Positions 7,878 to 28,994 of a stretch of 64,000 nucleotides of DNA are shown here, piece after piece. Where the stretch lies: positions 1 to 64,000 of the forward strand of contig MVQP01000001.1 of the NCBI GenBank assembly GCA_002067235.1. Direction: 5' to 3'. Below the pieces are notes generated by a model. That model was not told where the DNA came from, did no database searches, and saw only the letters and a program-made list of their open reading frames with translations. The stretch is from Syntrophorhabdus sp. PtaB.Bin047 (GTDB lineage: Bacteria; Desulfobacterota; Syntrophorhabdia; Syntrophorhabdales; Syntrophorhabdaceae). Both the position numbers and the translations under genes were made by a program. The stretch's first letter is position 1. Every line of letters starts with the position of its first letter.

Positions 7878-8782
7878 TGTGCCGCCACCTTGAGGGTCCT
7901 CCCACTCTTGAGGCGGACCTCGTTTATCGTGATCGACGTAACGGCATCTCCGTCCACAGGGGAACCCACCTTCAGCTCACCCCTGTTCGTCAACGCTATC
8001 GAGGCCTCGCTGGTTTGTATGACTCCCATCACCCTGAGCTCTCCGAGACGTTCACCTCCATCGGCGATATCGGGAAGGATGGGAAGCTCGCCGCCAGCGA
8101 GACTTGATCGCGAAGAACGGGGCACCCGACCGGACCTCGCTGAGCGTCCTTTCTCTTTCAGCGATGATTTCGACGCCTTTGCGTCCTGAAACCTCTTCAG
8201 GAATTTCTCGCGAAAGGGATTGTCATCCCTCAACACAAGCTGACTCAGAAGCGTCTCGGGCTGAGCTGGCGCGGCAGAGGGCTTCGATGGCGCACCATCC
8301 CGGCCGGCTTTCTCCAAGGGCGATGGAATCGTCCCGGGAGGAGGAGATGCCTCCCTCACGGACGGCGTCTCGGACGCAACCTGAGCGCCCGCTCCTGTCT
8401 TTTCGGGCGACACATCACTGACCCGTTTATCCGGGGACGATAGACGGGGAGTTTGCAGGACTTCGCCTGCCTGCCCTTCGACGAACGGCGCCTCCCGCAA
8501 GGCCGGAACATTCTTTTCTCCCCCGACATCAATGGCCCTTACAAGTCCGGATGGATTGCCGGAAATCCTCCTGTTCAACAAGTTGCGGGTGTAGTTGAGG
8601 TAATAGTAACCTCCTGCTGCAATCACAAGAACCAGGAAAACTCCTGTGTAGAGAGCAGCCCTGAACGGGACGCTGCCGCCTTTTTTGGAACCTTTCCCCT
8701 CAACGGCCGGATAATCGTCGCCGGTATATTCATCGCTGAGATCCTTATCTCGATCTTCTTTCTTCACAAATGGAAGTCTCAT
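7874..8782 (-). CDS. PilP-like inner-membrane/periplasmic pilus protein
   Basis: A 302-residue bitopic protein: about 40 polar cytoplasmic residues, one membrane helix (ALYTGVFLVLVIAAGGYYYL), a long Pro/Ser/Lys-rich linker and a C-terminal domain with GELRVMGVIQTSEASIAL then GELKVGSPVDG. That domain resembles the small beta domain of PilP and the homology region of GspC, which contacts the secretin periplasmic domains. Order secretin-PilO-PilP-PilQ matches R64. It overlaps the downstream ATPase by 4 bp. Confidence 0.75.
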   Translation of the reverse strand: MRLPFVKKEDRDKDLSDEYTGDDYPAVEGKGSKKGGSVPFRAALYTGVFLVLVIAAGGYYYLNYTRNLLNRRISGNPSGLVRAIDVGGEKNVPALREAPFVEGQAGEVLQTPRLSSPDKRVSDVSPEKTGAGAQVASETPSVREASPPPGTIPSPLEKAGRDGAPSKPSAAPAQPETLLSQLVLRDDNPFREKFLKRFQDAKASKSSLKEKGRSARSGRVPRSSRSSLAGGELPILPDIADGGERLGELRVMGVIQTSEASIALTNRGELKVGSPVDGDAVTSITINEVRLKSGRTLKVAAQ

Positions 8783-8798
8783 AGCCTATCCCCCGGAT

Positions 8799-9944: not shown

Positions 9945-9945
9945 C

Positions 9946-11382
9946 TCATATCTCCCTGTCGAGCTTCTCCTCGACGAAATTGATAAGCACAGTCAGCTCG
10001 GAGGTTCTGTCCCGGGAGCTGCTGTAACCGAACAGATAGGAAAGGACGGGCAGATTGCTCAAAAGGGGTATCCCCACCCGCTTCTTGTCGGCGCTCTTGA
10101 TCTTGAAGCCCGATATGGCAACCGTCTCGCCGACAGACATCTTGATGGGTATCGAAACATAGTTCCGTTCCACCTGAGGAAGCTCGACCTTCTCGACTAC
10201 CTGAAAACCAAGAAGGTTCGAAAGATCGACACTGGTGTTCACGAGATACCCTCTTTCCAGCTTGAGGGGGTTTACGGTCATCCTGAGCCCTACCTCCATG
10301 CTTGCCATCTGGGGTGTCGTGATTGTCTGATTGTTGACAACCTGGATCACGCTGCCTGTTGAGTACCAGACCGTCTGCGACATCTCGAAAGGAAGAACTG
10401 CACCCGAGACGGCCCTTGATTCCCACGAATGGACCACATGGACGTCGCCATAGGTCCCGAGCATCTTGATGAAACCCGCGAAATCTTCATCGATGACCAA
10501 AAGGGTGGCCACGTTGCTGTTACCCATCGTTTGGGTGAAGTTGGCATTGAATTCAATGGAGGGGCTTCTCGATTTGAGCAACGCCCACCAGTTGAGCCCG
10601 GTCTCATACTCGTCCTTGTAATCTATCCGGACAAGGGTGATCTTCATGGTAATGGTCCTGCGTTTCCTGGAGTCGGTATCCAGCATGTCCCTGACCATCT
10701 TGACCCGCGACGGTATGTCCCTCACGTACACGAAGCCGCTCGTCATCGGCGTGACCACGCCCTTGGCCGAAAGCATCTTCTTGATGCTCTCGATGACCTT
10801 CGACATCTCACGGTCTTCCGCCTTGTCCCCCGTCGATGACGTTCCCGATGGATTCCCTGATGTCCCCGAACCTGTGAATCCCACGCCTGCCGACGTTGAA
10901 GACGTTCCGTTCAGCGACCGGTTGTTCGATGACGAGGCTTCACTCAACGATTCCTTGTGCCTCACATACACGTCGTGAACATTGAGGATGGCCTCCTCGT
11001 AAGGGGTGACGACGTATGCCCCGTCGGCTACCTTTCTGTAGGCATAGTCAAGGCCGGAGACTATGGTCTCGATTGCCTCCTCGAAAGACTCTCCCTCGTA
11101 ATAAGCGCTCACCTTCACCTTTGAGGTGTCTATCTCGCGGTCGATGGTAATGCTTGCCCCGGCCTGCCTCCCCAGGGAGAGAAGGGCGTCGTTGAGAGGC
11201 ACACCGTTGAAGTGGAGGTTCACAGTCTTCGCTCCCGTATCCTTCACAACCGCCTCGGACAGGAGGGCTCTCTTAAAGGCCCCATCCGTCGTTTCGGCCC
11301 TGTTCGCACACCATCCTGGGACGCAGATCGCAGCAAGGACCACCATTGCGAGGCCCCACTTGAAGATATTCTTTCCCCTCAC
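9946..11382 (-). CDS. PilN/BfpB-type secretin
   Basis: A 478-residue outer-membrane secretin. After a signal peptide (KNIFKWGLAMVVLAAICVPGWCA) come N0/N1-type repeats (LHFNGVPLNDALLSLGRQAG), a Gly/Ser/Thr-rich loop at about residues 160-190, and the C-terminal secretin barrel with PIKMSVGETVAISGFK and GIPLLSNLPVLSYLFG, the family's VPLLSDIPILG-type signature. The GTG at 11382 is chosen because GGAGGAGG precedes it and it overlaps the upstream stop (GTGA); the frame is open further upstream but that would bury the signal peptide. It forms the pilus exit pore. Confidence 0.9.
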   Translation of the reverse strand: MRGKNIFKWGLAMVVLAAICVPGWCANRAETTDGAFKRALLSEAVVKDTGAKTVNLHFNGVPLNDALLSLGRQAGASITIDREIDTSKVKVSAYYEGESFEEAIETIVSGLDYAYRKVADGAYVVTPYEEAILNVHDVYVRHKESLSEASSSNNRSLNGTSSTSAGVGFTGSGTSGNPSGTSSTGDKAEDREMSKVIESIKKMLSAKGVVTPMTSGFVYVRDIPSRVKMVRDMLDTDSRKRRTITMKITLVRIDYKDEYETGLNWWALLKSRSPSIEFNANFTQTMGNSNVATLLVIDEDFAGFIKMLGTYGDVHVVHSWESRAVSGAVLPFEMSQTVWYSTGSVIQVVNNQTITTPQMASMEVGLRMTVNPLKLERGYLVNTSVDLSNLLGFQVVEKVELPQVERNYVSIPIKMSVGETVAISGFKIKSADKKRVGIPLLSNLPVLSYLFGYSSSRDRTSELTVLINFVEEKLDREI

Positions 11383-12005
11383 TGGATTCCTCCTCCGTCG
11401 GATGTATGTCTCTTTATCCGGCAGACAAATCCGTCGGGCGTTAGAAATGCCCCCTCTTCCCCTGAGAATCCGAGCGCAGCCTTTCTCGTCGATTTCTGCG
11501 GTATGTAGAAAACATTGAAGCCATCCTTCTCGCTCATGATGGTGTAGAATGCCCTGCCTGCACTGAAAGTTCCCCCTGCCGCGGGCACTATATGCAGGAA
11601 AGGTGTTGGGCCCCCGGCAAAAAGCATCCTTACTCTGGGCCACGCGATCTGTTTCGCCCTGTGGACCACGCGTTCTTCGCCGGTGTCGAAGACGGCAATA
11701 ACGAATTTGGCGCCTGGCGCCTCAAGTAATTTAAGGTTGAGACCATCAGGCGGCGGCACGGCGGGTGTGTCGAGAAAGGCGGCAAGTCTCGCCTGCCATT
11801 TTTCACCCTCTGTCAAAGACCGTTCTTCTCCCCCCGAGGCGGTCCCCGGGGCTATTCGGCTCTCACTTCTGACGGTCTGCGGTTTGTCGAGAAAAGCGTC
11901 TTCCAGTTCTGAAGACATTCCTTTCATCGACATGGTCTCGCCCTGCCCTGAATATGCATAAAGACACATGCATGCCGCAAACAGGGTCACAAGAATACGC
12001 CTCAT
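11379..12005 (-). CDS. secreted protein upstream of the secretin, unknown function
   Basis: A 208-residue protein with a signal peptide (RRILVTLFAACMCLYAYSGQG). The mature part has a Pro-rich stretch and a compact C-terminal domain (KFVIAVFDTGEERVVHRAKQ, TFSAGRAFYTIMSEKDG), unfamiliar to me. The ATG at 12005 has GGGAGG upstream and overlaps the stop codon of the lipoprotein gene. It overlaps the secretin start by 4 bp, so it is co-translated with it; a PilM-like or secretin-assembly role is possible but unsupported. Confidence 0.65.
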   Translation of the reverse strand: MRRILVTLFAACMCLYAYSGQGETMSMKGMSSELEDAFLDKPQTVRSESRIAPGTASGGEERSLTEGEKWQARLAAFLDTPAVPPPDGLNLKLLEAPGAKFVIAVFDTGEERVVHRAKQIAWPRVRMLFAGGPTPFLHIVPAAGGTFSAGRAFYTIMSEKDGFNVFYIPQKSTRKAALGFSGEEGAFLTPDGFVCRIKRHTSDGGGIQ

Positions 12006-12744: not shown

Positions 12745-13887
12745 CTACGGTGTGAAATAGATCAACACGGGAACTCCCTTTTCCATAATGAGGGTCGGAC
12801 TCTTTTTCGTCGAGCCTTCCACCTTCTTCGACAACCCCTGAAAGATGGTGTCTCCTGCCGCCAGCCCTCCCTCCCTCAAGCGATCGTCGCTTTTCGTCTG
12901 GCCCGTCACCGTGACGCCTCCGGCCCCCACCTCTACCGTTGTGGTGTCCTTTCTGAGAGCGTTGAGAAATGACGAGACTCCGGCCATGACCCCGCTCGTG
13001 ACTGTGCCGGCGACGTCCTCGTGCTTTACCGCCGATACTATGCCGTCGGTCTCGTCTATCGATGCGACATATCCTTTCATCTGACGATGGATGTTGTCGG
13101 GCCCGAGCGCACCGGACACCTCCACGTGGAACCGGTTATCGGTGAAATTGGCCACGGCCTTGCCCACCACTTTCCAGCCTTTCACGGGAGGCTCGGCCCC
13201 GGTGGCAACAAATGTGGCATTCGCCTGCGCCGATGTAAAGGTCCTGTCCACGACTGCCCGGTAGGGCTTATAATAGCTCACCTTCGGTCCCCCCGCGGCA
13301 TCCGCGGAGCCCGGCTTCTCGCTGTCCTGATCCCTGGGGGCGGGCTGCGTTTTGTTGACAAATCCACCGGAGCTTTTCTGGAGGTAGAGATGCTCCCATG
13401 CTTTCCTCCTTGACTCGCCGTCATCGCCTTCCCCGGCGGCCCTTCCCCCTTTGCCCCGTCCGGCGGCGTCATTGTAAATGTTTTTCCTGCCCCCATCCCC
13501 CGGGCTTGAGGGATTGTCACCATCGGGTTCTTCCATGACGATGTCATCCAGAAGCAGATCGCTTTCCTTTTTCTTCTTTCTCACACCAACGCCGCCGACG
13601 TATCCGCCCTTGTCGCTTTCCTTGAGCATCTGTTGCTCTTTCTTGATGGCATCTCCTATGGTGCTTTCGGTCTTTTTGGCCTCTTCCACGATCCTGGATT
13701 CTTCTTCCTGTCCATCCTTCTCTCCGGCACTCTTCGAGGGGCTGCCGGACCGGTTGACCTCAAGCTGGGAGATGCGTGTCTTCCTGGAGGTGCTCTTCAT
13801 CAGCGTGCCCACGATCAGCGACAGTATCACCGCCAGCACCACCACGCCCAGCGTAATCATCATCGCGGGTCTTGAAAGTTTTCTCAT
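12745..13887 (-). CDS. VirB10/DotG-like T4SS core protein
   Basis: A 380-residue bitopic protein: very short cytoplasmic end, one membrane helix (MMITLGVVVLAVILSLIVGT), a long charged and Gly-rich linker (residues about 35-200) and a C-terminal beta-rich domain. That domain has VKGWKVVGKAV, then NRFHVEVSGAL, MKGYVASIDETDG and a final TLIMEKGVPVLIYF, which follow the order of VirB10/TrbI/DotG C-terminal domains that cap the T4SS channel. Its size is between TrbI and VirB10. It follows a secreted protein and the VirB4 gene. VirB10 group is likely; DotG versus TrbI subgroup cannot be settled by eye. Confidence 0.7.
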   Translation of the reverse strand: MRKLSRPAMMITLGVVVLAVILSLIVGTLMKSTSRKTRISQLEVNRSGSPSKSAGEKDGQEEESRIVEEAKKTESTIGDAIKKEQQMLKESDKGGYVGGVGVRKKKKESDLLLDDIVMEEPDGDNPSSPGDGGRKNIYNDAAGRGKGGRAAGEGDDGESRRKAWEHLYLQKSSGGFVNKTQPAPRDQDSEKPGSADAAGGPKVSYYKPYRAVVDRTFTSAQANATFVATGAEPPVKGWKVVGKAVANFTDNRFHVEVSGALGPDNIHRQMKGYVASIDETDGIVSAVKHEDVAGTVTSGVMAGVSSFLNALRKDTTTVEVGAGGVTVTGQTKSDDRLREGGLAAGDTIFQGLSKKVEGSTKKSPTLIMEKGVPVLIYFTP

Positions 13888-13889: not shown

Positions 13890-14432
13890 TCAGAGTCTCG
13901 CCGCCAGAGGCCGAACGATATGTTTCGACCCCGAAAAGAGTATCGCGTTTCCGTTACGTATCCTTGCCGATCCGACGGCACCCCGTTTGTCATTGAAATA
14001 TACCGACAGAGCCCCGGGGCCGTCTGGTCTGACGGCAACCACCACGTCCCCGAGATCGAGGGGTTCCTTTTCATGAAGACAGTAGACGACTTTCAGATTG
14101 TGCTGTGATTGAAGATACTTGTATTCGTCGGGAAAGATCTCGCTCCATCTCCCGTCCACGACGGGCAAACCCTCGCTGTCGAACACGAGGGCGATGATCT
14201 CGCTCCCGCCACGGGGAGCGAAGATCTCTATCCTGTCCGGTATCTCGTATTTCGTGCGCACCCTCTCCAGGAAGGGGTCTCCCCCGGGAAGTGCCTTCTT
14301 TCCACCCGAAAGCATCTTCATTCCTCTGAGAAACTCCCCCAGCGCGTCCATCGCGGAACCATCCGTCTGCGGCTTGTCTGTTGCCGCCACCGGTGAAACA
14401 CCTGCTGCGACGATCAGGACCAGTACGATCAA
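13890..14432 (-). CDS. periplasmic protein upstream of the VirB10-like gene
   Basis: About 180 residues with a hydrophobic signal peptide ending near VSPVAA. The mature part has no motif I recognise; it is predicted soluble and periplasmic. The first conventional start in frame is TTG at 14432, but that gives a signal peptide with no positive charge and no ribosome site. An in-frame ATC at 14450 lies eight bases after AGGAGG and would add IAVLRI, supplying the arginine, so the true start may be that ATC. It ends 2 bp before the VirB10-like gene, so an accessory core-complex role is likely. Confidence 0.6.
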   Translation of the reverse strand: MIVLVLIVAAGVSPVAATDKPQTDGSAMDALGEFLRGMKMLSGGKKALPGGDPFLERVRTKYEIPDRIEIFAPRGGSEIIALVFDSEGLPVVDGRWSEIFPDEYKYLQSQHNLKVVYCLHEKEPLDLGDVVVAVRPDGPGALSVYFNDKRGAVGSARIRNGNAILFSGSKHIVRPLAARL

Positions 14433-14475: not shown

Positions 14476-17226
14476 TTATGAAAAATAGCCGTCTGAGTCG
14501 ATCTTCTTCATTACGGCCCCGATATCGACGGACTGACCGATACTCCCGAGGGGAAGCATGTCCGAGAGAACCTCGACGGCAACCGCCTGAGCACGCCTCT
14601 GCGATACCCCCCTGTCCTTGAGCGCCGATGCCACGGTCTCTCTCAGATAGCGCTCGTCCTTGTGCGTCGTGTAACTCCACCTGGTCCGGGGTGTCTGAAC
14701 ATTGACAAGAACGCCCTTGCCGATGTCCTCGTTGAGCGCCAGGACCTTGGCGTATCTGCCGGGGTAGAATTTGAGCGAGAGGAGAAGTTCCCTTTCCTGG
14801 CTGCCGAGACCTATGATCCTCACCAGATTGTCAATGCCTTCCATCGTCGGATTGTCGGGGGATACGTGGCGCGTAAAATACTTGTTCGATGCGGCGGAGA
14901 TGAAATGTTTGCCCTTCTCTGCTACATCGAGGATGTCCTGTGTCACAAGGTAGGTCGCAAGCCCCAGCGTCCGTTGCTGTCTTGCGTCCTTGTCGAGCAC
15001 GTCCAGAATGGGCTCGTTGTTCTTCAGATTATGGAACTCATCGTAGACAAACAGCTTCGGCCGCCTCTGAGCGGCGAGGACCCACTCGATTGAGTCGGCC
15101 TTGAGAAAAGGCGGCATCTCGCTCGGGAGATAGACCGCCTTCCGATATGCAAAGTCCCGGTAGAGGAGCAACAGGAGCGCTAGTATCTCTTTCCTCTCGC
15201 TCACAAGGCCCATGTGGATGCAGAATATGTCCCTGTCCACCGCGAAGTTCGTTACCCCGTTCAACAGCGCAGCCTGCTCTCCCTGCGCGTACAGATTGAG
15301 GACCCTCCTCATCTCCTCGGCAATTTGCCTGTCCCTGGCATTCGTGTTGATCGCCGGGTCCGATGCGAGGATCCGCATCAGGTCGTTGAGGGTCGGGGTG
15401 GCAAGGCACTGTGCCGTCTCCGCTTTCAGAAAGTCCCTTCTCTCGCCCGTCTTCAGGAACCGTTCGATGTAATGGTTGCGATACTCGACATATGTGTCAA
15501 AGGAGGGCGCATTCGAGAGGAGTTCCTCCTGGGTCTCGTTCGCTATCCTTACATTCCGCACAAGCCGGGGCTCCTCTTTGAAAAGGCTGTCGTACGCCCT
15601 TTTCACGGCACGCCCCAGGATGGATTGGGCCTCCTTGGCAATACCACCGCCCCTTCCATCCTCGCCGAGCATCGCCGTGAAAATGGCGTTGAGGGACAGG
15701 ATCTTCGATCCTGCTGGCTGCTCAAACCCCACCCTCAGGTCGAACATATTGACCCTGTTGTCACTGCTGCCGAAGGTGATGGGGATAAAGCTGCCCCCGT
15801 AGCTGGAGACAACAGGTTCATACGAAGAGGCCTTCGACATGTCAATGATGACAACAACGGGATCATAGGCCATGGCCCCGGCGATGATCCCGTTGGTGAG
15901 AACCGACTTTCCGCTGCCCGTGGGCCCGATGACAAGACCCGCCCATCTGTTCTGTCTCGAACTGAAGGGATTGAGCGCCGTAACTCCGCCGTAGCGGTTT
16001 CTGAGGATGATCGCCGGCTCGGCCCGATCACCGCGGTACATTCCTCGCAGCGGAACAAAGCTCAGCACGTCATGACCGAAGACAACGTGCGGGTCATAGC
16101 TTCTCACGGCACACCCGGGAAGGGATGCAATAAAGGCCCCTTCCTTTCTCATCCACTCGGCAAAAACGCCTGCCCCGTCCACCGCTTTGGCCACGGCCAC
16201 CCGCACGGCCTGGATCTTCTCATGAAGCTTTCCGACATCCTTGTCCCAGACGAGATAGCTGTTGAAGCACTTGACGAGCTTCCAGCCCTGTTTCGCCCGG
16301 TCCTGCAGAAGATCGTCGATGGCGGTGATCTTCTCCTTGTTCTCTATGGCGGCAGCCGTCTTTTTCCCGCTGAAGATATTCGCAAGCAGCCTTTGCCGCG
16401 CCAGATCCCGGGTGATGGTCGACAGGTCCTCGCACAGGATGGTCGTGTTCATTACCATGGGGAAATCCACGTTTTGGAGGACTCTGGAACCTGACCCCAC
16501 CGGAATGGCATTGGGGATGGTGTCCATCACCAGGGTTGCGAAATAGCAGCGTCCGTTGGTCAGGTAGTAATCTTTCGAGTAGAAATCGCTGTTGAAGATT
16601 CTTTTTCTGAGAGGCAGGAGCATGCCGCATTCCGACATCCTCATTTCAGGCGGCGGGTCATCGGGGTTCACTATCCTGGAGATGGTCCGCATCATCTCGG
16701 TGCCTGAAAGCTCTCTTATGGAGTAACCGAGCGGCACCAGCGTGTCTTTGAGCATTGCCGCCGCTTCTCCCATCTGCCTGTCGCGGTTCAGGAAGTCGCC
16801 GCCATCTAAGCGTTTCTTTTTCCTGCCTTCTATGGATGTCTCGGCAGAGAGCGGAACGGTCACGGTGCAGTACAGCGATGTATCGATCACACCGCCGTCC
16901 GACATGAGTTCGGCGATGTTCTCCGTTGCCATCGATTCCGACACAGGATCGGCTTTGAGCTGCCTGTACCGGTCAAACAGTTCCTGGAGGTCGCGGCCGA
17001 AATATGTCGTGAACTGGATGAAGACGTTCTGCGCCGTGAGGTTCTTCAGGAATTGGGAGCACTTGTTCACTTCCATTTCCATGACCGCGCTCTCGACTCC
17101 CTCGGCGGCGGCCTGGGTAATCTCGAACCCCCGGGCCTTCTCGAAGTTTTCGAGGATCAGATAATCGTTACCGACCATGGTGATGGGTATGCGCCGATAG
17201 AATGGAGAAGACCTCTGAAACATCAC
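14476..17226 (-). CDS. VirB4/TraC/DotO-type T4SS ATPase
   Basis: A 916-residue conjugation ATPase. The N-terminal half (about 1-430) is the VirB4 N-domain; then comes RNRYGGVTALNPFS, Walker A GPTGSGKS (about residue 435), VVVIIDMSKAS, the Walker B KLFVYDEFHNL (about 725) and the YLVTQDI motif, in the order of VirB4/TraC/TraU proteins. It is the main energy source of the channel and of pilus or core assembly. It overlaps the upstream gene by 4 bp. Length is near DotO/TraU (about 1,000) and TraC (about 875). Confidence 0.9.
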   Translation of the reverse strand: MMFQRSSPFYRRIPITMVGNDYLILENFEKARGFEITQAAAEGVESAVMEMEVNKCSQFLKNLTAQNVFIQFTTYFGRDLQELFDRYRQLKADPVSESMATENIAELMSDGGVIDTSLYCTVTVPLSAETSIEGRKKKRLDGGDFLNRDRQMGEAAAMLKDTLVPLGYSIRELSGTEMMRTISRIVNPDDPPPEMRMSECGMLLPLRKRIFNSDFYSKDYYLTNGRCYFATLVMDTIPNAIPVGSGSRVLQNVDFPMVMNTTILCEDLSTITRDLARQRLLANIFSGKKTAAAIENKEKITAIDDLLQDRAKQGWKLVKCFNSYLVWDKDVGKLHEKIQAVRVAVAKAVDGAGVFAEWMRKEGAFIASLPGCAVRSYDPHVVFGHDVLSFVPLRGMYRGDRAEPAIILRNRYGGVTALNPFSSRQNRWAGLVIGPTGSGKSVLTNGIIAGAMAYDPVVVIIDMSKASSYEPVVSSYGGSFIPITFGSSDNRVNMFDLRVGFEQPAGSKILSLNAIFTAMLGEDGRGGGIAKEAQSILGRAVKRAYDSLFKEEPRLVRNVRIANETQEELLSNAPSFDTYVEYRNHYIERFLKTGERRDFLKAETAQCLATPTLNDLMRILASDPAINTNARDRQIAEEMRRVLNLYAQGEQAALLNGVTNFAVDRDIFCIHMGLVSERKEILALLLLLYRDFAYRKAVYLPSEMPPFLKADSIEWVLAAQRRPKLFVYDEFHNLKNNEPILDVLDKDARQQRTLGLATYLVTQDILDVAEKGKHFISAASNKYFTRHVSPDNPTMEGIDNLVRIIGLGSQERELLLSLKFYPGRYAKVLALNEDIGKGVLVNVQTPRTRWSYTTHKDERYLRETVASALKDRGVSQRRAQAVAVEVLSDMLPLGSIGQSVDIGAVMKKIDSDGYFS

Positions 17227-18737
17227 CTGACCATCCCTTTCTGGAACCCTTCGGGCAATCCTCTGTCCTCGGCGTACCGGGAAACGTCAGGATCTTCCGT
17301 GGCCAGCGCTTCGGCCATTGCCCGAAGCGCAAGGAGCTTGAGCCTCTGATTTTCCATGTTCAGGAGATAATAGTTGAAGCGTGCCAGGTCTTTCCAGGCC
17401 ATGTCCTCGTAGCCGCGATCTATGGCCGCCGGGTCAAAGCCCGAAAGACCCGACCTGATCGCGGCAGCCATCTCGAGCGATGTCCGGGCGACAATATAGT
17501 GCCTCACGGCCAGCCTTCTGCGCAGCTTTGACGAGTTCCTTCCCGCCAGGAGGACCGCTATCTTCCTGACACCCTCCCGGTCAAGAAACGACACCCCGCC
17601 CTTCTCCCGCGCCACGGCCGCAAGGAAGACGGCATCGCCAAGGAGCCTTTCGGCCTCCCTTTCTATTGCGCTGTAAAGGCGGTCTATGGCACGTTCCTTT
17701 TCCTTTTCCGATGACATGGCACTGTTAACCGCCAGGATGGCTGCGGCGATCCCGTCCTTCATCTTTCTGTTCACTGAGGTCCTCATCCCTTTTGCCATAT
17801 CGGCAAGTTCAGCCGCGGATGTCCGTATATATTCCGAGGGCACGCCCATGGCGGCTTTGTCCACGCTTTCGATGATCTTGCCGAGGTCCTGAGAGGAAAC
17901 TGCGGCTTTGTTCTTAAGGCCGCGAAGTTTCTCAAGACGGGCCGCGAGATACGCACCGCTTGCGCTGCAGAACCCTCTGCTTATCGAATCCGCAAGAGAG
18001 ATCTCTGCAATCCTCGCGATATTCTTCAGCCCCCCTTTTGTGTGTGTCCCGATCTCATCAATCATCTGGCGCGTATTGCCGCTAACCTCAGCGCCTTGCT
18101 TCCCCTGTATGCCGTCAGCTACGTCCATTTTCCCGCCAAGTACCGTCACACGGGAAAGCAATTTTGCCGACACCGGCAGGAAATCAGCCGTCCGGGCCTG
18201 AAAGTCTCCGGCCTCATCCGCATAGGTTGCCAAGGCTCGCCGGGAATTGAGAAACTCTCTCTGATAGTCGCTAAGCACCCCACGGATTCGGCTGTCCTCA
18301 AGTTCAAGTCGCTTCAGTTCCTTGCTCAAGGCCGAGAGCACCGCTTTGTTCAGGCGGGAGGCAAACGCCTCAACGTTCATTCGGGTTTTGACGAAGGCGA
18401 GTTGCGAACCAAGGCCGTCGCTGACAGTATCCTCCACAAGAGATGAAAGATCCGTGGCTTTCCGAAGACCTGTTTCCAGCACCCCCAAACTGCCGGGCAA
18501 GAGTGCAAGGCTCAGCTTCTCAGAAAGGCAGAGTTTAAGTTCCGTGATAAGACGATCCTCAATGAGGTTTCTCAGCAATGCCGAGAAGTACGGGTAATTC
18601 GTCACGGCAATGACAGGTGAACACTTGACGTAGCAGTCACACTTAAGCGGAAGAAGACCGGCGACCAGGAGAATGCCGCCAGCCGCAAAAATGGACGCCA
18701 GAAGCAATACCCGATTTCTGACCCCGGTTCGATTCAT
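17223..18737 (-). CDS. large secreted T4SS protein with the shared C-terminal motif
   Basis: A 504-residue protein with an N-terminal signal or anchor helix (VLLLASIFAAGGILLVAGLL), cysteines just after it (KCDCYVKCS), and a mostly helical body rich in Lys, Arg, Ala and Leu. Near the C-terminus it has FDPAAID, KDLARFNYY and a MAEAL block in the same ungapped register as the two following genes' upstream neighbours (see finding). VirB5/TrbJ proteins are also helical, secreted and end in such a segment, so a channel or pilus-tip role is possible. It lies between the 206-residue gene and virB4, overlapping the latter by 4 bp. Confidence 0.65.
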   Translation of the reverse strand: MNRTGVRNRVLLLASIFAAGGILLVAGLLPLKCDCYVKCSPVIAVTNYPYFSALLRNLIEDRLITELKLCLSEKLSLALLPGSLGVLETGLRKATDLSSLVEDTVSDGLGSQLAFVKTRMNVEAFASRLNKAVLSALSKELKRLELEDSRIRGVLSDYQREFLNSRRALATYADEAGDFQARTADFLPVSAKLLSRVTVLGGKMDVADGIQGKQGAEVSGNTRQMIDEIGTHTKGGLKNIARIAEISLADSISRGFCSASGAYLAARLEKLRGLKNKAAVSSQDLGKIIESVDKAAMGVPSEYIRTSAAELADMAKGMRTSVNRKMKDGIAAAILAVNSAMSSEKEKERAIDRLYSAIEREAERLLGDAVFLAAVAREKGGVSFLDREGVRKIAVLLAGRNSSKLRRRLAVRHYIVARTSLEMAAAIRSGLSGFDPAAIDRGYEDMAWKDLARFNYYLLNMENQRLKLLALRAMAEALATEDPDVSRYAEDRGLPEGFQKGMVR

Positions 18738-18740
18738 GAT

Positions 18741-19361
18741 CTATCTCTCTCCCTCAAGAGCGTCCATCATGTTCAGAAGGGACAACAACCTGAGTTCTTG
18801 CGCCTGGATCAGCCCCCGAAGATGCGCAAGCTTTGCTGCATCTTTCTGTGCCTGGTGTTTGGAGCAGAAGTCGAAGGCCGTGGGGGCGAATCCTTCCAGT
18901 GCCCTCTCCACCCGCGAGGCCTTCGCATAGGCCTTTTCCCCCGAGGAGTATGTTGTCAGTGCGGCACCGGACTTCAGCACCCGCAGTCTGGTTGAGGCCA
19001 TATCTGCCACCCCCCGGTTCTTGAGGTTGACTCGGCGGGCGGCTTTTTCAATTCTATTCCCGATATCTGTTGCTTCTTCCGAAGACCCGAATATCTCCGA
19101 CATCATGGAGGTCTGCCGCAACACACCGGCGACAAGCCTCTGCCTCAGCAGGATGTTGCGGCGCTCATCAAGGTAAGCGCAGTAGGGGGTTTTGAAAGAC
19201 GCAGCCCACTGCTGCGCCATTTGAGCTATCGTTGCGTCGGTGGCGACAGGACACGGCGGAACAACCGCAGAGGCCTTTTGGGCAAAGCCAAACGTCAGAA
19301 CGAGCGATGTGATGACGATAGCGACGATAAGCCGTGAAAGAGCGGGGAGACTCGGTTCCAT
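18741..19361 (-). CDS. secreted helical protein, VirB5-like candidate
   Basis: A 206-residue protein with a signal peptide (LIVAIVITSLVLTFGFAQKASA). Two cysteines follow soon after (PPCPV and TPYCAYL). The body is helical, and the C-terminal 37 residues (QAQKDAAKLAHL then MMDALEG) match the C-terminus of the preceding gene's product without gaps. No enzyme motif is visible. It is separated from its neighbours by only 2-3 bp, so the three genes are one transcription unit. VirB5/TrbJ-like minor pilus component is a reasonable guess. Confidence 0.65.
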   Translation of the reverse strand: MEPSLPALSRLIVAIVITSLVLTFGFAQKASAVVPPCPVATDATIAQMAQQWAASFKTPYCAYLDERRNILLRQRLVAGVLRQTSMMSEIFGSSEEATDIGNRIEKAARRVNLKNRGVADMASTRLRVLKSGAALTTYSSGEKAYAKASRVERALEGFAPTAFDFCSKHQAQKDAAKLAHLRGLIQAQELRLLSLLNMMDALEGER

Positions 19362-19363
19362 CC

Positions 19364-20119
19364 CTACCTGCCTTCCAAAGCCCGGCGCATTTCGCCCTGA
19401 GACATAACGGCAAGTATCTCTGACTGGAGCATCGTGTTGTAGTAGGTGAGCTTCGCCAGATCCTTGACAGCCTGATCGGATTTGGCGCCATCGATATATG
19501 CAGGATCGAAAGAGGATAAATCCTTACGGAATCTTTCCGCCACGAACAAGCCCTCCGCGCCTTTCTCGTAGGCCGCTACCGACGCCTGGTTGAATACGTC
19601 GCGGAGCTTTACCGCCGCGTATTCCGCCGTTGTGAAATGCTTCATCCTGTCGGTGCCGCCGCCCGGAGCACCCGCCAGCAGGATGGATACCTCGCGGATC
19701 TTTTTCTGGAACTCCTTGAAATCCGAATTCGCCGACGGGATCATGGGTGCTGTCTTGCTCTTTGCCGTCTCCGCGAAAAGTTTGCCGTCCCCTTTGGCGA
19801 AGGCCCCCGCATTGTTTTTCATGTACTGGGATACCATTTTGTCCGTGAACGAGGAGATGTTGTATTTGAGGAAAGAGACGGCTTTGGTGTTGATCGTGCC
19901 GGGCTCGAGCTTTACCTTCACCTCTTCGTTCCACACGGCCTTGATCTTATCCGTGATCGCCTGTGTGACCATCTTCTGCACCATGCTCATTAGGGCGGGA
20001 AAGTTGATCACCTGCACCGCGGTCCCATAAGCGCTCGTGGCGAGCATGAAGAAGATCACGACCCCGCAGATGACTTTCCCCATTGTCGTTCCCGGAATCA
20101 TTCTTAGTCTGTTTGTCAT
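19364..20119 (-). CDS. secreted helical protein, first gene of the virB4-pil operon
   Basis: A 251-residue protein with a signal peptide (GKVICGVVIFFMLATSAYG). The body is helical; the C-terminus has SSFDPAYIDG, QAVKDLAKLTYY and RRALEG, the motif shared with the next two genes. The ATG at 20119 is chosen because GGAGGAGAG ends just before it; the frame extends upstream but without a ribosome site. It is the first gene of an uninterrupted minus-strand run down to position 179. VirB5/TrbJ-like role is inferred from secretion, helicity and context. Confidence 0.65.
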   Translation of the reverse strand: MTNRLRMIPGTTMGKVICGVVIFFMLATSAYGTAVQVINFPALMSMVQKMVTQAITDKIKAVWNEEVKVKLEPGTINTKAVSFLKYNISSFTDKMVSQYMKNNAGAFAKGDGKLFAETAKSKTAPMIPSANSDFKEFQKKIREVSILLAGAPGGGTDRMKHFTTAEYAAVKLRDVFNQASVAAYEKGAEGLFVAERFRKDLSSFDPAYIDGAKSDQAVKDLAKLTYYNTMLQSEILAVMSQGEMRRALEGR

Positions 20120-22240: not shown

Positions 22241-23311
22241 TCACTCCCTCATGAACAGCGCGGGGTCGTTCGTCGCCCTGCGGGCATCGGCCTCTTCAAC
22301 CTCTTCGGAATCGACAAGAACTCTCAGGCTCTGGTTCAGGGTCCAGCCTATCCGGCCGCTTCGCTGCTGCTGGCGGAGCAGGTCATATCTGCCCCGCACA
22401 AGCAACTCGCGGGTCGCGGCATCCTTCGTGTCCAGGAATTCCGTGGCTAGGACGAGACGCCCCGCCGTCGGCACCAGGACTTGGACCATCGCGGCGAGAA
22501 GAACGTCAGTCAGCTCCTGGATCATCCACTCCTGTTTTTCCACTGGGAACATCGACGCTATCCGTGAAGGGACCTGCGTGGTCATGAGGGTATGGATGGT
22601 CGTAAACACGAGGTGGCCCGTCTTGGCCGCCTGGATCGCCGCCGATGCTGTTTCCGGGTCTCTCACCTCACCTACCAGGATCACGTCGGGCCGCTGGCGC
22701 ATCGCCGCCCTCAACGCCCGCTCGAAGGAAAGCGTCGTCGTGCCTACCTCGCGCTCGATGATGTTGCCCATCCCTTCAGGGATGTCGTATTCAATGGGAT
22801 CCTCTATGGTGACACAGTTGAGGCACCGTGTTGCCACAAGATACGCTATGAGGGAGGCGAGCGTTGTCGATTTGCCGCTGCCTGTGGGGCCGGCGATAAA
22901 GATTATACCTCCCGCCGGACTTTCAAGGACCAACCGGAGAAGATCGCCGGGAACACCGAGGTTGAGCGGGTTCGTCTCCACGGATTTCAAGCGCCTCATG
23001 ACGATGGAAACCCCCTTTTTCGTCATGCACAGGTTGACGCGAAACCTGAAGGTTTTCTTCTCTTTGCCGCTGCCCACCTGTCTCGCATAGGACAGGTCCT
23101 TCTCCTCTCTGTCGTAGAGCTGCGCCCGGGCGCCGGAGACCCTGAGGATGCGCTCTATCGCTTCGTCTATCTCGTATCCTTCGGGAGGGTCGGCGGCGGC
23201 GGCCATGCGCCCGCTTATCCTCAAAAAGACCGGGCTTTCCGATTGGATGTAGATGTCGGACGCGTCCTCCCTGATCGCCGTGTCGATGATATCGTCGAGG
23301 AAATTGCTCAT
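22241..23311 (-). CDS. DotB/TraJ-type (PilT-like) T4SS ATPase
   Basis: A 356-residue hexameric ATPase. Residues about 1-110 form the N-domain (DDIIDTAIREDASDIYIQ); then come Walker A GPTGSGKS, box TIEDPIEYDIPEG, Walker B VILVGEVRDPETAS and His box VFTTIHTLMTTQVPSR. DotB/TraJ and PilT share this layout. Because it directly follows the TraL-, DotC- and DotH-like genes it is most likely the DotB-equivalent that energises substrate transfer. The intergenic space to vapB (22132-22240) holds only the vapBC promoter. Confidence 0.87.
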   Translation of the reverse strand: MSNFLDDIIDTAIREDASDIYIQSESPVFLRISGRMAAAADPPEGYEIDEAIERILRVSGARAQLYDREEKDLSYARQVGSGKEKKTFRFRVNLCMTKKGVSIVMRRLKSVETNPLNLGVPGDLLRLVLESPAGGIIFIAGPTGSGKSTTLASLIAYLVATRCLNCVTIEDPIEYDIPEGMGNIIEREVGTTTLSFERALRAAMRQRPDVILVGEVRDPETASAAIQAAKTGHLVFTTIHTLMTTQVPSRIASMFPVEKQEWMIQELTDVLLAAMVQVLVPTAGRLVLATEFLDTKDAATRELLVRGRYDLLRQQQRSGRIGWTLNQSLRVLVDSEEVEEADARRATNDPALFMRE

Positions 23312-23641: not shown

Positions 23642-24034
23642 CTATCCCGCGCTCGCCGTCATGGTTGCCTTGATGATCCCGAGGATCGCCGAGGTCGACA
23701 CGAGGCAGCCTCCAAAGGCAACCTTCTTCCACGCACCCTGGGCACCCTGGGGGTTGTTGTCCTTGTTCGCCATCACCACGAAGCCCCATATGATGAGACC
23801 CGTCCCAGCGCAGAAAGAGATCGACAGGAGACCGTACATGATTATGTTGGCGAGGTTGCTCAGGAACTCTCCTGCATCGGTGGTCTCCGTGGCCCACCGG
23901 CTCTCATTGAATGTCTGTGCCCGGGCGCCCCTGATGCGCACGGCGGTGAACGACGACCACAGTGCGGCAAGAAGACAGCCTCTGAATAGTGCCCCGCCTT
24001 TTCCTGTCCTGTCCCTTATTGGTGCCGACATCAT
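23642..24034 (-). CDS. two-helix membrane protein, VirB2/DotP-like candidate
   Basis: A 130-residue protein with a signal peptide ending ARA-QT and two hydrophobic helices (IIMYGLLSISFCAGTGLIIWGF and VAFGGCLVSTSAILGII) separated by a polar loop of about 20 residues containing NKDNNPQGAQGAW. This is the layout of VirB2 pilins, TraQ/TraR and DotP/IcmD proteins. The same layout, with a similar loop, appears in the plus-strand gene at 26978-27232. It lies in the T4SS run, so it may be a membrane pilin or channel subunit. Confidence 0.55.
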   Translation of the reverse strand: MMSAPIRDRTGKGGALFRGCLLAALWSSFTAVRIRGARAQTFNESRWATETTDAGEFLSNLANIIMYGLLSISFCAGTGLIIWGFVVMANKDNNPQGAQGAWKKVAFGGCLVSTSAILGIIKATMTASAG

Positions 24035-24525: not shown

Positions 24526-25167
24526 CTATTCCACTTTTATCGCCTGGCGGCCGAGCTTGCGGTAAAATGTCATCACCCCTTCGCACTTCGTTTTGAAGGT
24601 CTTTGCGATCACCGCCCACTTCCCGCCGTCGCCGTGGGGCGCTATCGTCAGGAAAACGTCGTCAGGCTTTGCGGAGCTGCCGAGGAACGAGAAGGCCTCC
24701 GCCTCCGTGGCGAAGGAATCCACGAGGAAATAGCAGAAGTTGGCCCGGTCCCTGCCGAGCCAGTCCCCACCCGATTCATCGGAAACGAACCTGGGCGGCG
24801 ACACGATCTTCCAGACGAGGGTCGGAGCCGAATAACTGCTTCCGTCCCTGCTTATCTTCGCCGGGCTGTAAATGAGCCTCACCTGCGCCGGAATGATGGC
24901 CCCTCCCTTCACCAGTTCGAGGTACAGGAGTTCATCGCGATACTCCCTGACAAAGTCGCGCAGCCTCTCCTCCATTTCCTGCCTGCAAAGGCGCGAGCCT
25001 TCCCGCCTGCCTTCCTCTTTGCCCTCTTCGCGTGCGGTCCGGAGAGATTCCGACTCGATGACATCCTCCGGAACCGCCCGGATGGTAGGGGCACATCCGG
25101 CAGCGGCGAGGAGTATTCCCGCCACGGCCGCGATGCAAATGAGCGAAAGGGTGTGCCTGCTTCTCAT
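24526..25167 (-). CDS. DotC/TraI-like T4SS outer-membrane lipoprotein
   Basis: A 213-residue lipoprotein: signal with lipobox AAAGC near residue 24. The body has TAREEGKEEGRREG, then a helix ending in ELLYLELVKGGAIIPAQV, then SPPRFVSDE and GGDWLG, the order of DotC, whose helical part is followed by a conserved 'PPVI' region and a PARFVS/TWRDYL-type segment. It is shorter than Legionella DotC (about 300) because of a short linker. The ATG at 25167 has GAGG upstream. DotC joins DotD and DotH in the outer-membrane core. Confidence 0.65.
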   Translation of the reverse strand: MRSRHTLSLICIAAVAGILLAAAGCAPTIRAVPEDVIESESLRTAREEGKEEGRREGSRLCRQEMEERLRDFVREYRDELLYLELVKGGAIIPAQVRLIYSPAKISRDGSSYSAPTLVWKIVSPPRFVSDESGGDWLGRDRANFCYFLVDSFATEAEAFSFLGSSAKPDDVFLTIAPHGDGGKWAVIAKTFKTKCEGVMTFYRKLGRQAIKVE

Positions 25168-25174
25168 AGCATCC

Positions 25175-25447
25175 TCATTTCCCGCTGGCCTTCGGATCAT
25201 CGACGGCGACGGTGACCGCTCCCGTTGCCGCCTGTCCCTGGCGAAACTGGTAAGGATATCCCACGGAGAAGGATCTTACGAAGGCGATCTGTCGTGAAAG
25301 GGCGTTTACGGTAGCGGAGGAAACCCTCTCCGAAAAGGGCACGGTGATTCTCTCCTGCGTCTGCGCAAAGAGCGGCGACATTGAACCGGATACCAGCGCG
25401 AGAAAGACCATGCAGCAGCTAACGCTTGCTAGAGAACGTCTTGCCAT
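25175..25447 (-). CDS. small secreted protein at the dotD position
   Basis: A 90-residue protein with a signal peptide (VSCCMVFLALVSGSMSPLFAQ) and a short mature part with no recognised motif. It has AAGGAGG eight bases before its ATG and overlaps the DotH-like gene's end. DotD usually is a larger lipoprotein with a lipobox; this one has neither, so the DotD comparison is positional only. It may be a small core-complex component. Confidence 0.55.
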   Translation of the reverse strand: MARRSLASVSCCMVFLALVSGSMSPLFAQTQERITVPFSERVSSATVNALSRQIAFVRSFSVGYPYQFRQGQAATGAVTVAVDDPKASGK

Positions 25448-26270
25448 CGACTACCCTCCTTACCGTTATTTCCCGGCTCCGTGAGGCCACGACGCTTGTC
25501 CCGTTGCCGAGGTCCAGGGCAAACTCGGCATTGCCCACGGGCATGACCTTTTCGGCGATCATGAAGACATGAAGCTCAGGTTTCACGAGTTTCATCATCC
25601 GTATGAAGGGATAGGTCCCGAGATCTGTCAGTGACGGTGCCCTGCCTTCAAGGAGAATGTCCTCGACGGTACCCTTTTCGGGGATGCGCTGCGTCGTGAT
25701 GATGCGCACGATCGCGTCGGTTATGTCAGCCATACCACCCATGCCCGACCGCCTTACGTTGATGGTGAGGTCCGCCTCTCCCGATGCCCCGTTCTCGACA
25801 AGCAGATAGTGGTGGGGCACCTGGTCCCCCGCCTGCGTTCTTTCAAAAACGATAATGTTCGTTGACTTGAATTCTCTCACCGGAAAAACGATGAGGGAAT
25901 TGCCTCTCGTCTCGATGCTGAATTTCTCCCTCGCGCCGATCGCAATATCGTCGACGGTGAAACTGTAAGGGAGATTGATGACGCTGCCATACCCGTATGC
26001 GAGACGTATAGCTGGCACCACACCCGGCACTTCGTCGATGTCGCGCTCCCTCGTGCGAGTCAACTCACGGTCTTTTTCAATGAGCGGCTTCAAGCGCTGC
26101 GCTTTTTCCTTCATCTCGAGAATGTCCTTCTCCGGAAGATCGAAGGGCGGAACGACGATCTGCTCCTGTGTCTGCTGCTTCGCGGTCTCCGGAGGCTGTT
26201 CCGGTGCGGCCTCAACCACCGGCAGGCTCAGAAAAACGGACAATATACAGGCCGAAAGGGTTTTCCACAC
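25419..26270 (-). CDS. DotH/TraN or VirB9/TraK-like core-complex protein
   Basis: A 283-residue secreted protein: signal peptide ending VVEAA, a helical stretch with PPFDLPEKDILEMKEKA (the N-terminal pattern of DotH/TraN), then a beta-rich domain (LAYGYGSVINLPY, FSIETRGNSLIVFPVREF, NIIVFERTQAGDQ) that resembles the N-terminal domain of VirB9/TraK/DotH. It is a likely component of the outer-membrane channel ring. The GTG at 26270 has GGAG upstream. Overlap of 59 bp with the DotI-like gene suggests coupling. Confidence 0.65.
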   Translation of the reverse strand: MWKTLSACILSVFLSLPVVEAAPEQPPETAKQQTQEQIVVPPFDLPEKDILEMKEKAQRLKPLIEKDRELTRTRERDIDEVPGVVPAIRLAYGYGSVINLPYSFTVDDIAIGAREKFSIETRGNSLIVFPVREFKSTNIIVFERTQAGDQVPHHYLLVENGASGEADLTINVRRSGMGGMADITDAIVRIITTQRIPEKGTVEDILLEGRAPSLTDLGTYPFIRMMKLVKPELHVFMIAEKVMPVGNAEFALDLGNGTSVVASRSREITVRRVVDGKTFSSKR

Positions 26271-26901
26271 TGCGCACTCCTTTGTACAGCTTTATCTCGT
26301 ACGTCTTTACCTTGAGGTCCTCGCTCGCCGCTTCCTCTCCAACCACACGCACGGCATTGAGCCTGACCGAGGCAAGAACAACCGCTTCCCTGCCGCGTAT
26401 CTTCGAGTCCTTGAGGGCATTCCACTCGGCGGTGACGATGAGCTTTTGATCCGACAGGGACTTAAGGTAATTGTCCCGGTACGGCTCATAGAAGGCCTTG
26501 AAAGACGCGGGATCGAAACGCTTCGACACGCGACTTATCCGGTTGGTGAGATCGCTTTGTGATCTCACCTCCACATAGGTCCAGCCGAGGATGTCCCTGA
26601 TCGCGTCCCTGCAGAAGATCTCAAGCTCTGGCCAATGGATCCTGTCGGGATCGTCGACGCGGACGAGAGATGGCCTTCCCGTGGAATCCATGAAGACGAT
26701 CTTGTCCTTTCCTTTTCCGGCAACCACGATGACGATCGATGCCACCACCATGATGATGCTGAGAACCACCGTCGCGACGGGAATGACGAGAAGGGCCCTC
26801 GATGTGAGTTTCAATCCCCGGAATATGCCTATCTCTATTGCAAGGGCCTCTCCGCCATCGGTCAGAGGAACCTTCTTCTTTTCTTTCCTGAAGACTGCCA
26901 T
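26212..26901 (-). CDS. DotI/VirB8-like inner-membrane T4SS protein
   Basis: A 229-residue bitopic protein: cytoplasmic N-terminus of about 30 residues, one membrane helix (LLVIPVATVVLSIIMVVASIVIVVAG) and a periplasmic domain of about 165 residues ending in NPFGLYIVRFSEP. The order (W near the start of the domain, FDPASFKAFYEPYRDNY, then beta strands) suits the VirB8/DotI/TraM fold. The ATG at 26901 has AGGAG upstream and is chosen over the longer frame, which would put a hydrophobic tail from noncoding sequence at the N-terminus. Confidence 0.65.
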   Translation of the reverse strand: MAVFRKEKKKVPLTDGGEALAIEIGIFRGLKLTSRALLVIPVATVVLSIIMVVASIVIVVAGKGKDKIVFMDSTGRPSLVRVDDPDRIHWPELEIFCRDAIRDILGWTYVEVRSQSDLTNRISRVSKRFDPASFKAFYEPYRDNYLKSLSDQKLIVTAEWNALKDSKIRGREAVVLASVRLNAVRVVGEEAASEDLKVKTYEIKLYKGVRSVENPFGLYIVRFSEPAGG

Positions 26902-26977
26902 CCATCTCCTGCTATATGGTAAATAGCACCATCGAACACTGAAATACTTGTACAGTGGGACGTTGGAGGGATTTTTT

Positions 26978-27232
26978 GTGACTGAATTGATCACCAGGCT
27001 GATCAGCAACACACAGACCATGGCCTCTCCCCTGATGCCCGTTCTGGGAACCTTCCTCATCATCAAGGGCCTCATAAGACTTGCCAATGGAAACGAGGCC
27101 GCGAAGGGAGGAGCCGGGGGTGGAAAGATGATTATCATCGGGGCCTTCCTGACATGCTACAAGCTGACCTCGTGGATCGTCATCTCCACCCTCACCCGGT
27201 GCGGCCTGTATCTTGGCAACGCCGGTCTGTAG
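26978..27232 (+). CDS. plus-strand two-helix membrane protein, VirB2/DotP-like candidate
   Basis: An 84-residue protein on the strand opposite to all other T4SS genes. GTG at 26978 lies seven bases after GGAGGG, a strong site. It has helices around MPVLGTFLIIKGLIRL and KMIIIGAFLTCYKLTSWIVI with a loop NGNEAAKGGAGGG between them. Layout and loop resemble the protein encoded at 23642-24034. Its 3' end overlaps the 3' end of the coupling-protein gene by 41 bp. It fills the space between DotI- and DotL-like genes, so it probably belongs to the system. Confidence 0.6.
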   Translation: MTELITRLISNTQTMASPLMPVLGTFLIIKGLIRLANGNEAAKGGAGGGKMIIIGAFLTCYKLTSWIVISTLTRCGLYLGNAGL

Positions 27233-28934
27233 ACCTTCCCTCCTGCAAGGTGTCCACTGTCGCCTTCTTCACATATTTCATCAGTCTCAACTGCTTCACG
27301 TCACCCGTCGGGGGAATGTAGCGCGCTCTAAACCGTCTCACCTCATCTCCGGCAAAGATATATCCTTCACCGACATTGAGCCCGGCCAGGTCTCTCATCT
27401 CTATGCGGCTGCCTTTCTGAAAGGCATAGGTGCCGTCCCAATTACCAAGGCTCTCCATCATCTTGCTGTCGTTCCGGATGTTGGGCATCATGAAGAAGGA
27501 TTCGCCCGCCCGCTCTGCCAGAAATTTCGCCGTGTCCGTATCCTCCACCTTCATAACGATCTTGTAGTTCGTGTTTCCGATGAGCCGCTTTGCGTCCGTT
27601 TCCGACGCCTTGAAGAGCGATGCAAGCTCCTGAACGGATATGATGACGCCAAAACCGAGCGAGCGTCCCTGGGCAAGGATGGTATCGAACCCTTCGACGG
27701 CATAGGAACCGTACTCGTCGGCAATGAGGGTGAAGGGAACCGAGGGCCTGCGGCGGCGGACATCACGCCGTATCTCTTCGTAATTCCCTTCCACTCTCGT
27801 TCCGAGGGCCGTCGTCAAAGCGATCTTGAAGGCATTCAGGGCAAGCCTCCCCAGGGCCTGAAGGGTCGAGATGGAATACGACAGGGAGGGAAGGAGAACG
27901 ACAAGAATTCGGCTGTTTGACACCACGTCGACCATGTCGATCTCGGGCGCGTCGGTATCGAAGATTCTGTTGAAGGTCCCGGCGAGGAGATCAAGGGGGG
28001 CGCCCCACTGCTGAACGAAGAATCCGTATTGCCTGAGGGCCTCCCCGGCCGCGGGAGACATCCGGCCCTGGCCCCTGTTGCGGTATTCCTCCCAGCCGGG
28101 CAGGTCGCCGAGAAGCCCTCTCAGTCGGGCCTTCACCGGCTGCCCGACGTCGTACAGGGGATACCTTTCATCAGCCTCTAGGGATAGGAGTTCATCGAAG
28201 GCAAGATGCTTTCGCACCTCGGACGGTGTGAGGACATACTCTCCAAAGACCTCGGGGTGGTCCCTCCTGTAGACAAGCTGAGTAAGCACTGCTTTCATCA
28301 GTATCTTGCCCCGCTCCTGCCAGTAGACCTGATCCCCTTCAGCCTGCTTCAGGAAACCCGTCATGATCTCGGAGAGGAAATCGGCGTCGCCGTATGTCAT
28401 GAAGTTGAACGTGTGGGACTGGGAAGGGTTGAGGAAATTGAGCACCAGGAGGTCTTCCACGCGGTCGCACTTCTCGATGATCTCGTAGAGCACTTCATAG
28501 GTGTCGGTGACGTCCGACTTGCCGTCGATGAAACAGAAGCCTCCCCCGAGCCTCATGATGGAGTCGGCGATGGTCCTGATGGCTGTCGTCTTGCCCGACC
28601 CTGTCGTGCCGATGAGCATCCCGTGGCGGGTCAGCTCCCCGATGGGGAGCATGACGGGCAGGCCGTACTGGTCCTTCCCGAGAAACACGGCAGTCTCACC
28701 CTCGCGGCGCGCGAAAACGGGGGCGGGTGAATTCGACGATGCCATGAGTTGCACGACAAGCCCGACACCAAATAGACAGCAGGCGGCAAAAGGGCTTAGA
28801 AAGGCGATGGCGATGGAAACAGCCGTCATCATCCAGGGGTTGACCCACCGGATCTTCAGCCATGTTTCGGGACTTAGCCGCGAGGCAGGGGCTATCCTTG
28901 CCCGGTGCGCCCTTTCATCGATGGAACGTGCCAT
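27192..28934 (-). CDS. DotL/TraD-type coupling ATPase (type IV coupling protein)
   Basis: About 580 residues. Two N-terminal membrane helices (MMTAVSIAIAFLSPFAACCLFGVGLVVQL) precede a RecA-like ATPase with Walker A IGTTGSGKTT, the FCFIDGKSDVTD block, Walker B FTLIADEYGS and the motif GFGVIISVQELA. This is the plan of VirD4/TraD/DotL proteins, which hand DNA or protein substrate to the channel. The first in-frame GTG (28988) adds 18 residues; I use the ATG at 28934, although neither start has a strong ribosome site. DotL/TrbC is the nearest type given the neighbours. It is divergent from proS. Confidence 0.85.
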   Translation of the reverse strand: MARSIDERAHRARIAPASRLSPETWLKIRWVNPWMMTAVSIAIAFLSPFAACCLFGVGLVVQLMASSNSPAPVFARREGETAVFLGKDQYGLPVMLPIGELTRHGMLIGTTGSGKTTAIRTIADSIMRLGGGFCFIDGKSDVTDTYEVLYEIIEKCDRVEDLLVLNFLNPSQSHTFNFMTYGDADFLSEIMTGFLKQAEGDQVYWQERGKILMKAVLTQLVYRRDHPEVFGEYVLTPSEVRKHLAFDELLSLEADERYPLYDVGQPVKARLRGLLGDLPGWEEYRNRGQGRMSPAAGEALRQYGFFVQQWGAPLDLLAGTFNRIFDTDAPEIDMVDVVSNSRILVVLLPSLSYSISTLQALGRLALNAFKIALTTALGTRVEGNYEEIRRDVRRRRPSVPFTLIADEYGSYAVEGFDTILAQGRSLGFGVIISVQELASLFKASETDAKRLIGNTNYKIVMKVEDTDTAKFLAERAGESFFMMPNIRNDSKMMESLGNWDGTYAFQKGSRIEMRDLAGLNVGEGYIFAGDEVRRFRARYIPPTGDVKQLRLMKYVKKATVDTLQEGRSTDRRCQDTGRTG

Positions 28935-28994
28935 GTTAACAGGAATAGCAGAGGAAAGGGTTTCAGGTTTCAGGTTCAAAGACTTCACCCCGTT

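Follow-up and report, generated by a model that had tools for sequence, protein, structure and literature searches.

Do three neighbouring genes on the minus strand of the window (the whole 64,000-nucleotide stretch of DNA analysed) encode related proteins, and what might these proteins do in the secretion machine encoded around them? The three open reading frames, here p251, p206 and p504, lie where the preliminary description had placed them, and the features that matter for the first question are the following.

19364..20119, minus strand: p251, exported helical protein of 251 aa (open reading frame list; orthologues in 7 genomes of the genus)
19367..19645, minus strand: C-terminal module in p251 (profile match 3.8e-40, with a model built from these sequences)
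18741..19361, minus strand: p206, exported helical protein of 206 aa (open reading frame list, orthologues)
18744..19025, minus strand: C-terminal module in p206 (profile; independent match with p251 alone 5.5e-7)
17223..18737, minus strand: p504, with a hydrophobic N-terminal segment, a p251-like N- and C-terminus and an insert of ~275 residues (open reading frame list, orthologues)
17292..17549, minus strand: C-terminal module in p504 (profile; independent match with p251 alone 1.8e-5)

The genes are separated by gaps of a few bases, and the gene for a VirB4-like ATPase lies directly downstream of p504; a longer frame of p251 starts at 20182. Each of the three proteins has one N-terminal hydrophobic segment. 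Judged from the sequence, a cleavage site is plausible in p251 and p206, and p504 has no obvious signal-peptidase site. All three proteins had earlier been called secreted; because it lacks an obvious cleavage site, p504 may be membrane-anchored rather than secreted. In the orthologue alignments, the invariant cysteines are C37 and C61 in p206 and C35 and C39 in p504.

The three proteins had been described as ending in the same register of 35 positions. This register is exact, i.e. A2, K4, D5, A7, L21, M29, A32 and L33 are common to p251, p206 and p504, and p251 and p206 are identical at 15 of the 35 positions, as counted earlier (p251/p504, 11/35; p206/p504, 12/35). The best ungapped windows of 35 residues contained 15 (p251/p206), 18 (p251/p504) and 13 (p206/p504) identities compared to maxima of 11, 13 and 13 in 200 shuffles; by this crude count the p206/p504 pair is not beyond chance, whereas by blastp and profiles it is. 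Pairwise blastp among the three proteins gave 2e-11 (92 aa, ungapped), 1e-8 and 8e-6. The preliminary description had named failure to recover the other two copies above background as one result that would refute the module; when the whole genome was searched in six frames with p251, exactly p206 (5.5e-7) and p504 (1.8e-5) came back, and the module was thus not refuted. Moreover, profile-profile comparisons of the orthologue sets gave 8.5e-11, 6.6e-10 and 2.3e-6, and those of the C-terminal segments alone 1.4e-12 to 1.3e-8, scores that 0 of 40 column shuffles reached; with 16 other families of the gene cluster as decoys, the best E-value was 0.0038.

In p251 and p206 the homologous stretch covers ~93 residues; in p504, which extends 24 residues past the module, it covers ~60-78. 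The C-terminal homology is therefore confirmed, with an extent of ~93 residues rather than 35. Similarly, the upstream motif FDPAxID is present in p251 and p504, as proposed, but is not confined to them: p206 has FAPTAFD in register, and an F-x-P...D motif lies upstream of K-D in all three proteins. Over 21 sequences, A36, L43, D52, K61, D62, L78 and M86 (C-terminal segment numbering) are invariant. In each family, conservation is highest in the 35-residue motif, with mean pairwise identities of 0.90, 0.80 and 0.74 versus 0.76, 0.51 and 0.59 in the N-terminal parts; this conservation and the functional precedent of CagH, CagI and CagL make the suggested interaction or docking module plausible. 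The N-terminal bodies had been reported to differ. In profile comparisons, the N terminus of p206 indeed has no detectable relation to those of p251 and p504, but the latter two align over 66 columns (E=2.5e-4; score reached in 0 of 60 shuffles). Because the N termini align as well, p504 can be described as a p251-like protein with the long insert.

All three C-terminal segments are probably helical, and similarity between helical, low-complexity C termini can be coincidental; the compositionally adjusted E-values, the shuffles, the decoys and the residues invariant over 21 sequences argue against coincidence, which the profile tests refute and to which we give a negligible chance. In total, the blastp, profile, shuffle and decoy tests give good support to a common C-terminal module that occurs in triplicate in one operon, and on this sequence evidence it is near certain that p251, p206 and p504 are paralogues.

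The second question depends on the genes around the trio, which are these.

179..11643, minus strand: type IVB (IncI thin-pilus-like) pilus genes (family matches)
12745..13887, minus strand: 380-aa membrane-anchored protein, probably VirB10/DotG-like (from its sequence; no family match)
13890..14432, minus strand: 180-aa exported protein of the same operon (open reading frame; orthologue in the same order)
14476..17226, minus strand: VirB4/TraC/DotO-like ATPase (NCBIfam TIGR02746 2.7e-22 and TIGR00929 3.3e-20, below cut-offs)
22241..23311, minus strand: PilT/DotB/TraJ-like ATPase (T2SSE 4.4e-48; pilT_fam 5.8e-76; TraJ 1.2e-38)
23642..24034, minus strand: pilin-like two-TM protein of 130 aa (weak matches, DUF6750 0.015 and T4SS_pilin 0.11)
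24526..25200, minus strand: DotC/TraI-like lipoprotein (weak; T4SS_TraI 0.018)
25419..26270, minus strand: DotH/VirB9-like protein (DotH 0.0058; VirB9 3.1e-4)
26212..27138, minus strand: DotI/IcmL (VirB8-like) protein (T4BSS_DotI_IcmL 5.5e-5)
27192..28988, minus strand: coupling protein, TrbC/TraD/DotL-like (TrwB_AAD_bind 1.9e-13; TrbC_conju 3.9e-63)

The pilus gene set comprises a secretin, a GspE/PilQ-like ATPase, a T2SSF/PilR-like protein, a second T2SSE ATPase, an N-methylated prepilin-like protein and an SLT transglycosylase; the second T2SSE-type ATPase (405 aa, 3803-5017) adjoins the PilR-like gene, and the GspE/PilQ-like one lies at 6054-7877. The best Pfam/NCBIfam matches of the cluster are to the DotI, DotH, DotC, DotB, DotO and DotL families; because several of these matches are below the curated cut-offs, the cluster is to be regarded as a distant relative of T4BSS/IncI systems. 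By its best family matches, the region from 179 to 28988 on the minus strand can be read as a chromosomal T4BSS/IncI-like secretion system together with a type IVB pilus, with a conserved place in the genus. Across 12 genomes of the genus, no match to the DotA/TraY family (TIGR04346) exceeded its cut-off, TrbL/VirB6 likewise had no match in the genus that passed, and the only polytopic protein encoded in the cluster is the PilR-like one; since the genomes are draft MAGs, the lack of VirB6/DotA is to be taken as provisional. A relaxase was not noted among the genes of the cluster, and the relaxase genes found in the genus are on other contigs. Between the DotB-like gene and p251, a Fic-domain gene on the plus strand and an antitoxin-like/PIN-like toxin-antitoxin pair on the minus strand occupy 20356-22224, and are present between these genes in the related genome G008 as well. 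Two further minus-strand frames (29131-30960 and 30848-31885) were discarded as antisense to conserved plus-strand genes.

The trio is intact and in the same order in 7 of the 12 genomes of this Syntrophobacterales-type genus; the public records of its loci are MAGs that carry the labels Syntrophobacterales, Deltaproteobacteria or proteobacterium. A profile search found exactly three copies of the module in each genome with an intact trio, all in the operon. In a tree of the C termini, the sequences fell into three groups, one per gene, with supports of 80-100. Because each gene forms its own group, the duplications are older than the sampled species, and by this tree the trio is a set of ancient duplicates. 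Each orthologue set has just seven members, all closely related, and this limits the sensitivity of the profiles as well as the structure models. No copy of the trio was detected in other genomes of the class, profile searches found no relatives in 395 genomes of the phylum, searches of plasmids and of viral contigs found none, and PHROGs gave no match; outside the genus, a neighbour search led by VirB4 returned only distant VirB4s.

On one side of the cluster, the flanking genes (for adenine deaminase, a response regulator, a PepP-like protein and a 594-aa protein) are conserved in both the window and G008; in G008, G010 and G014, the opposite end of the cluster has a gene for a MarC-like membrane protein. 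Three genomes (G015, G016 and G011) contain partial clusters or stumps. From the conserved flanking genes and these partial clusters, the simplest reading is that the cluster is a chromosomal system inherited vertically, with losses. The decayed cluster of G015 stops inside p251 (L032 12252-12892 with L088 1-7900), that of G011 consists of stumps of the coupling protein gene and of a 241-aa gene (L089 66-1113), and that of G016 has both ends with a broken middle (L033 7580-10294), a short p251-like stretch remaining between the PilV-like and 196-aa genes.

AlphaFold2 models of p251 and p206, built from 14 and 21 sequences, are of low confidence (mean pLDDT 50 and 66). They have the same order of helices, in which the signal is followed by a long helix and then by short helices, and a second long helix is linked by a loop to a long helix at the C terminus (p251: 40-71 ... 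164-202, loop, 214-249; p206: 42-77 ... 118-155, loop, 168-203), and in both of these low-confidence models the F-x-P...D motif sits in the loop between the last two long helices. Foldseek searches of the PDB with the models gave nothing at E<=0.001; among structures in the PDB, TrwJ (7o3v_J) was at E 2.8 and CagL (3zci) at E 3.0 for these all-helical, low-confidence models. A sequence search of the PDB with the profiles of p251 and of the C-terminal segment gave nothing credible.

The preliminary description had suggested that the C-terminal helix is VirB5/TrbJ-like. This attribution found no support in sequence comparisons: Pfam PF07996 matched 0 of 14 p251 and p206 members at E<=1, did not match p504 and had no match in the organism's own genome, and in hhalign comparisons the profiles of the C-terminal segments scored no better against nine VirB5 proteins than shuffled columns did. 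The same comparison with nine TraW-like proteins was also no better than shuffles. Two alignments of the C termini made by eye, both convincing in appearance, one with VirB5 ('AKDxKESQDLAN') and one with TraW-like proteins ('WYxxI...GLLREL...LLxxxAM'), were rejected after these profile tests; a match of whole p206 to VirB5 at E=0.0047 was rejected as lying within the decoy range (DotC versus p504, 0.0038). The VirB5 slot is so variable that sequence usually fails to find its occupant, and as a functional guess the VirB5/TrbJ assignment remains reasonable given the adjoining VirB4 gene, the export signals and the topology of a helical hairpin. Like the trio, VirB5/TrwJ/TrbJ (PF07996) is an exported helical protein encoded beside VirB4, and TraW/IcmX are exported helical proteins encoded near VirB4 in the same class of machine. 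The trio differs from the former in that it lacks a Pfam match, its profiles score no better than shuffles and no VirB6 was found, and from the latter in having no profile similarity and no DotA/TraY partner found; moreover, its genes lie upstream of VirB4, whereas those for TraW/IcmX lie downstream. By analogy, the odds are about even that the trio works like a VirB5-slot protein, as opposed to being a member of that family.

VirB5-slot proteins normally sit on a VirB6/DotA-type partner. Named as occupants of the slot in a recent review are CagL, TrbJ, TrwJ, TraW of R64 and IcmX of Dot/Icm (PMC12624023); VirB5 and VirB6 form a pentameric stalk (PMC9259494), IcmX and DotA have been reported as a pentameric protochannel (PMC12981334), and tandem copies of TrwJ (VirB5) occur in Bartonella (PMC2883598). 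In the Cag T4SS of H. pylori, CagH, CagI and CagL are adjacent exported proteins that have a common C-terminal motif and co-purify; deletion of the motif abolishes CagA translocation, and CagI and CagL need it for pili (PMC3164655). Likened by description, the Cag trio and p251/p206/p504 are each three neighbouring exported T4SS proteins of one operon with a common C-terminal motif. In Cag, however, the motif common to the three is six residues, with CagI and CagL sharing more of the C terminus (PMC3164655, PMC10194873), versus a homologous segment of ~93 residues here, and the Cag system is VirB-type with host-cell targets whereas the present cluster is T4BSS/IncI-like and belongs to an environmental bacterium. 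A megaplasmid of Teredinibacter purpureus (L062 3362-6839) encodes three consecutive TraW-like exported proteins in a T4BSS cluster, beside DotA/TraY, an apparent parallel to tandem VirB5-slot proteins; a plasmid of Desulfosarcina ovata (L059 2332-4588) encodes two consecutive TraW-like proteins that are near-identical over most of their length and have different N termini.

That the three proteins have kept a common, coiled C-terminal segment suggests that they assemble together in the machine. From the Cag motif precedent, the reviews of the VirB5 slot and the tandem TrwJ and TraW-like copies, we favour, with a probability of roughly 0.5, that three paralogous helical subunits co-assemble via the C-terminal hairpin in the VirB5 (stalk/tip) slot, as CagH, CagI and CagL do with their common motif. 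Each protein would be exported to the periplasm, with p504 perhaps held by an anchor in the inner membrane, and would fold into long helices, the last of which form a helical hairpin at the C terminus. The common hairpin would be an assembly surface by which the three pack together or onto a common ring of the machine, forming a stalk or pilus-tip sub-assembly, the role that VirB5, TrbJ, TraW and IcmX have elsewhere, and the divergent N-terminal parts would give every subunit its own position or partner. The missing sequence link to VirB5, TraW or IcmX, the missing VirB6/DotA partner and the weak models count against this slot.

The same observations, i.e. no sequence relation to VirB5 or TraW/IcmX, restriction to one genus in the searches made and no VirB6/DotA partner found, would fit hairpin-held, lineage-specific accessory subunits of the periplasmic/outer-membrane core, comparable to the Dis proteins of Dot/Icm and located away from the stalk or tip. 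The trio genes adjoin VirB4, however, and the best precedent for a common C-terminal motif in tandem exported proteins is the pilus-biogenesis trio of Cag; we consider accessory subunits possible though rather unlikely. T4SS substrates commonly have C-terminal signals, and the module sits C-terminally, so that it might be a sorting or translocation signal and the trio substrates delivered by the system; a sorting role was also weighed for the Cag motif (Shaffer et al., PMC3164655). Against this, all three proteins carry a hydrophobic export segment at the N terminus, the module is no short tail but spans ~93 residues predicted to be helical, further residues follow it in p504, and no other protein of the genome has it, whereas a substrate signal should be dispersed. 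A role as substrates is thus improbable.

The p251-like ends and long insert of p504, its hydrophobic segment without an obvious cleavage site and the lack of a polytopic channel gene in the cluster and of above-cut-off DotA/TraY or VirB6 matches in the genus also raise the idea that p504 is an inner-membrane-anchored stalk base replacing VirB6/DotA, with p251 and p206 stacked on top. However, p504 has a single hydrophobic segment, as against several hydrophobic helices in VirB6, and a diverged VirB6 could be encoded elsewhere in the genome, making such a replacement a long shot. Joining this base to co-assembly in the stalk/tip slot would give a machine of the T4BSS type that lacks VirB6/DotA; its stalk would be a hetero-oligomer of the three paralogues, which have one C-terminal docking hairpin in common, with the insert-bearing, membrane-anchored p504 as the base. 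We regard this combination as very doubtful.

Diverged paralogues with one strictly conserved hairpin separate the part that would dock on the machine from the variable parts, and they offer a small set of invariant residues for testing (K-D-x-A, F-x-P...D, L and M). If co-assembly via the hairpin is true, a C-terminal docking module common to several exported T4SS subunits, known from Cag, would extend to a different kind of machine.
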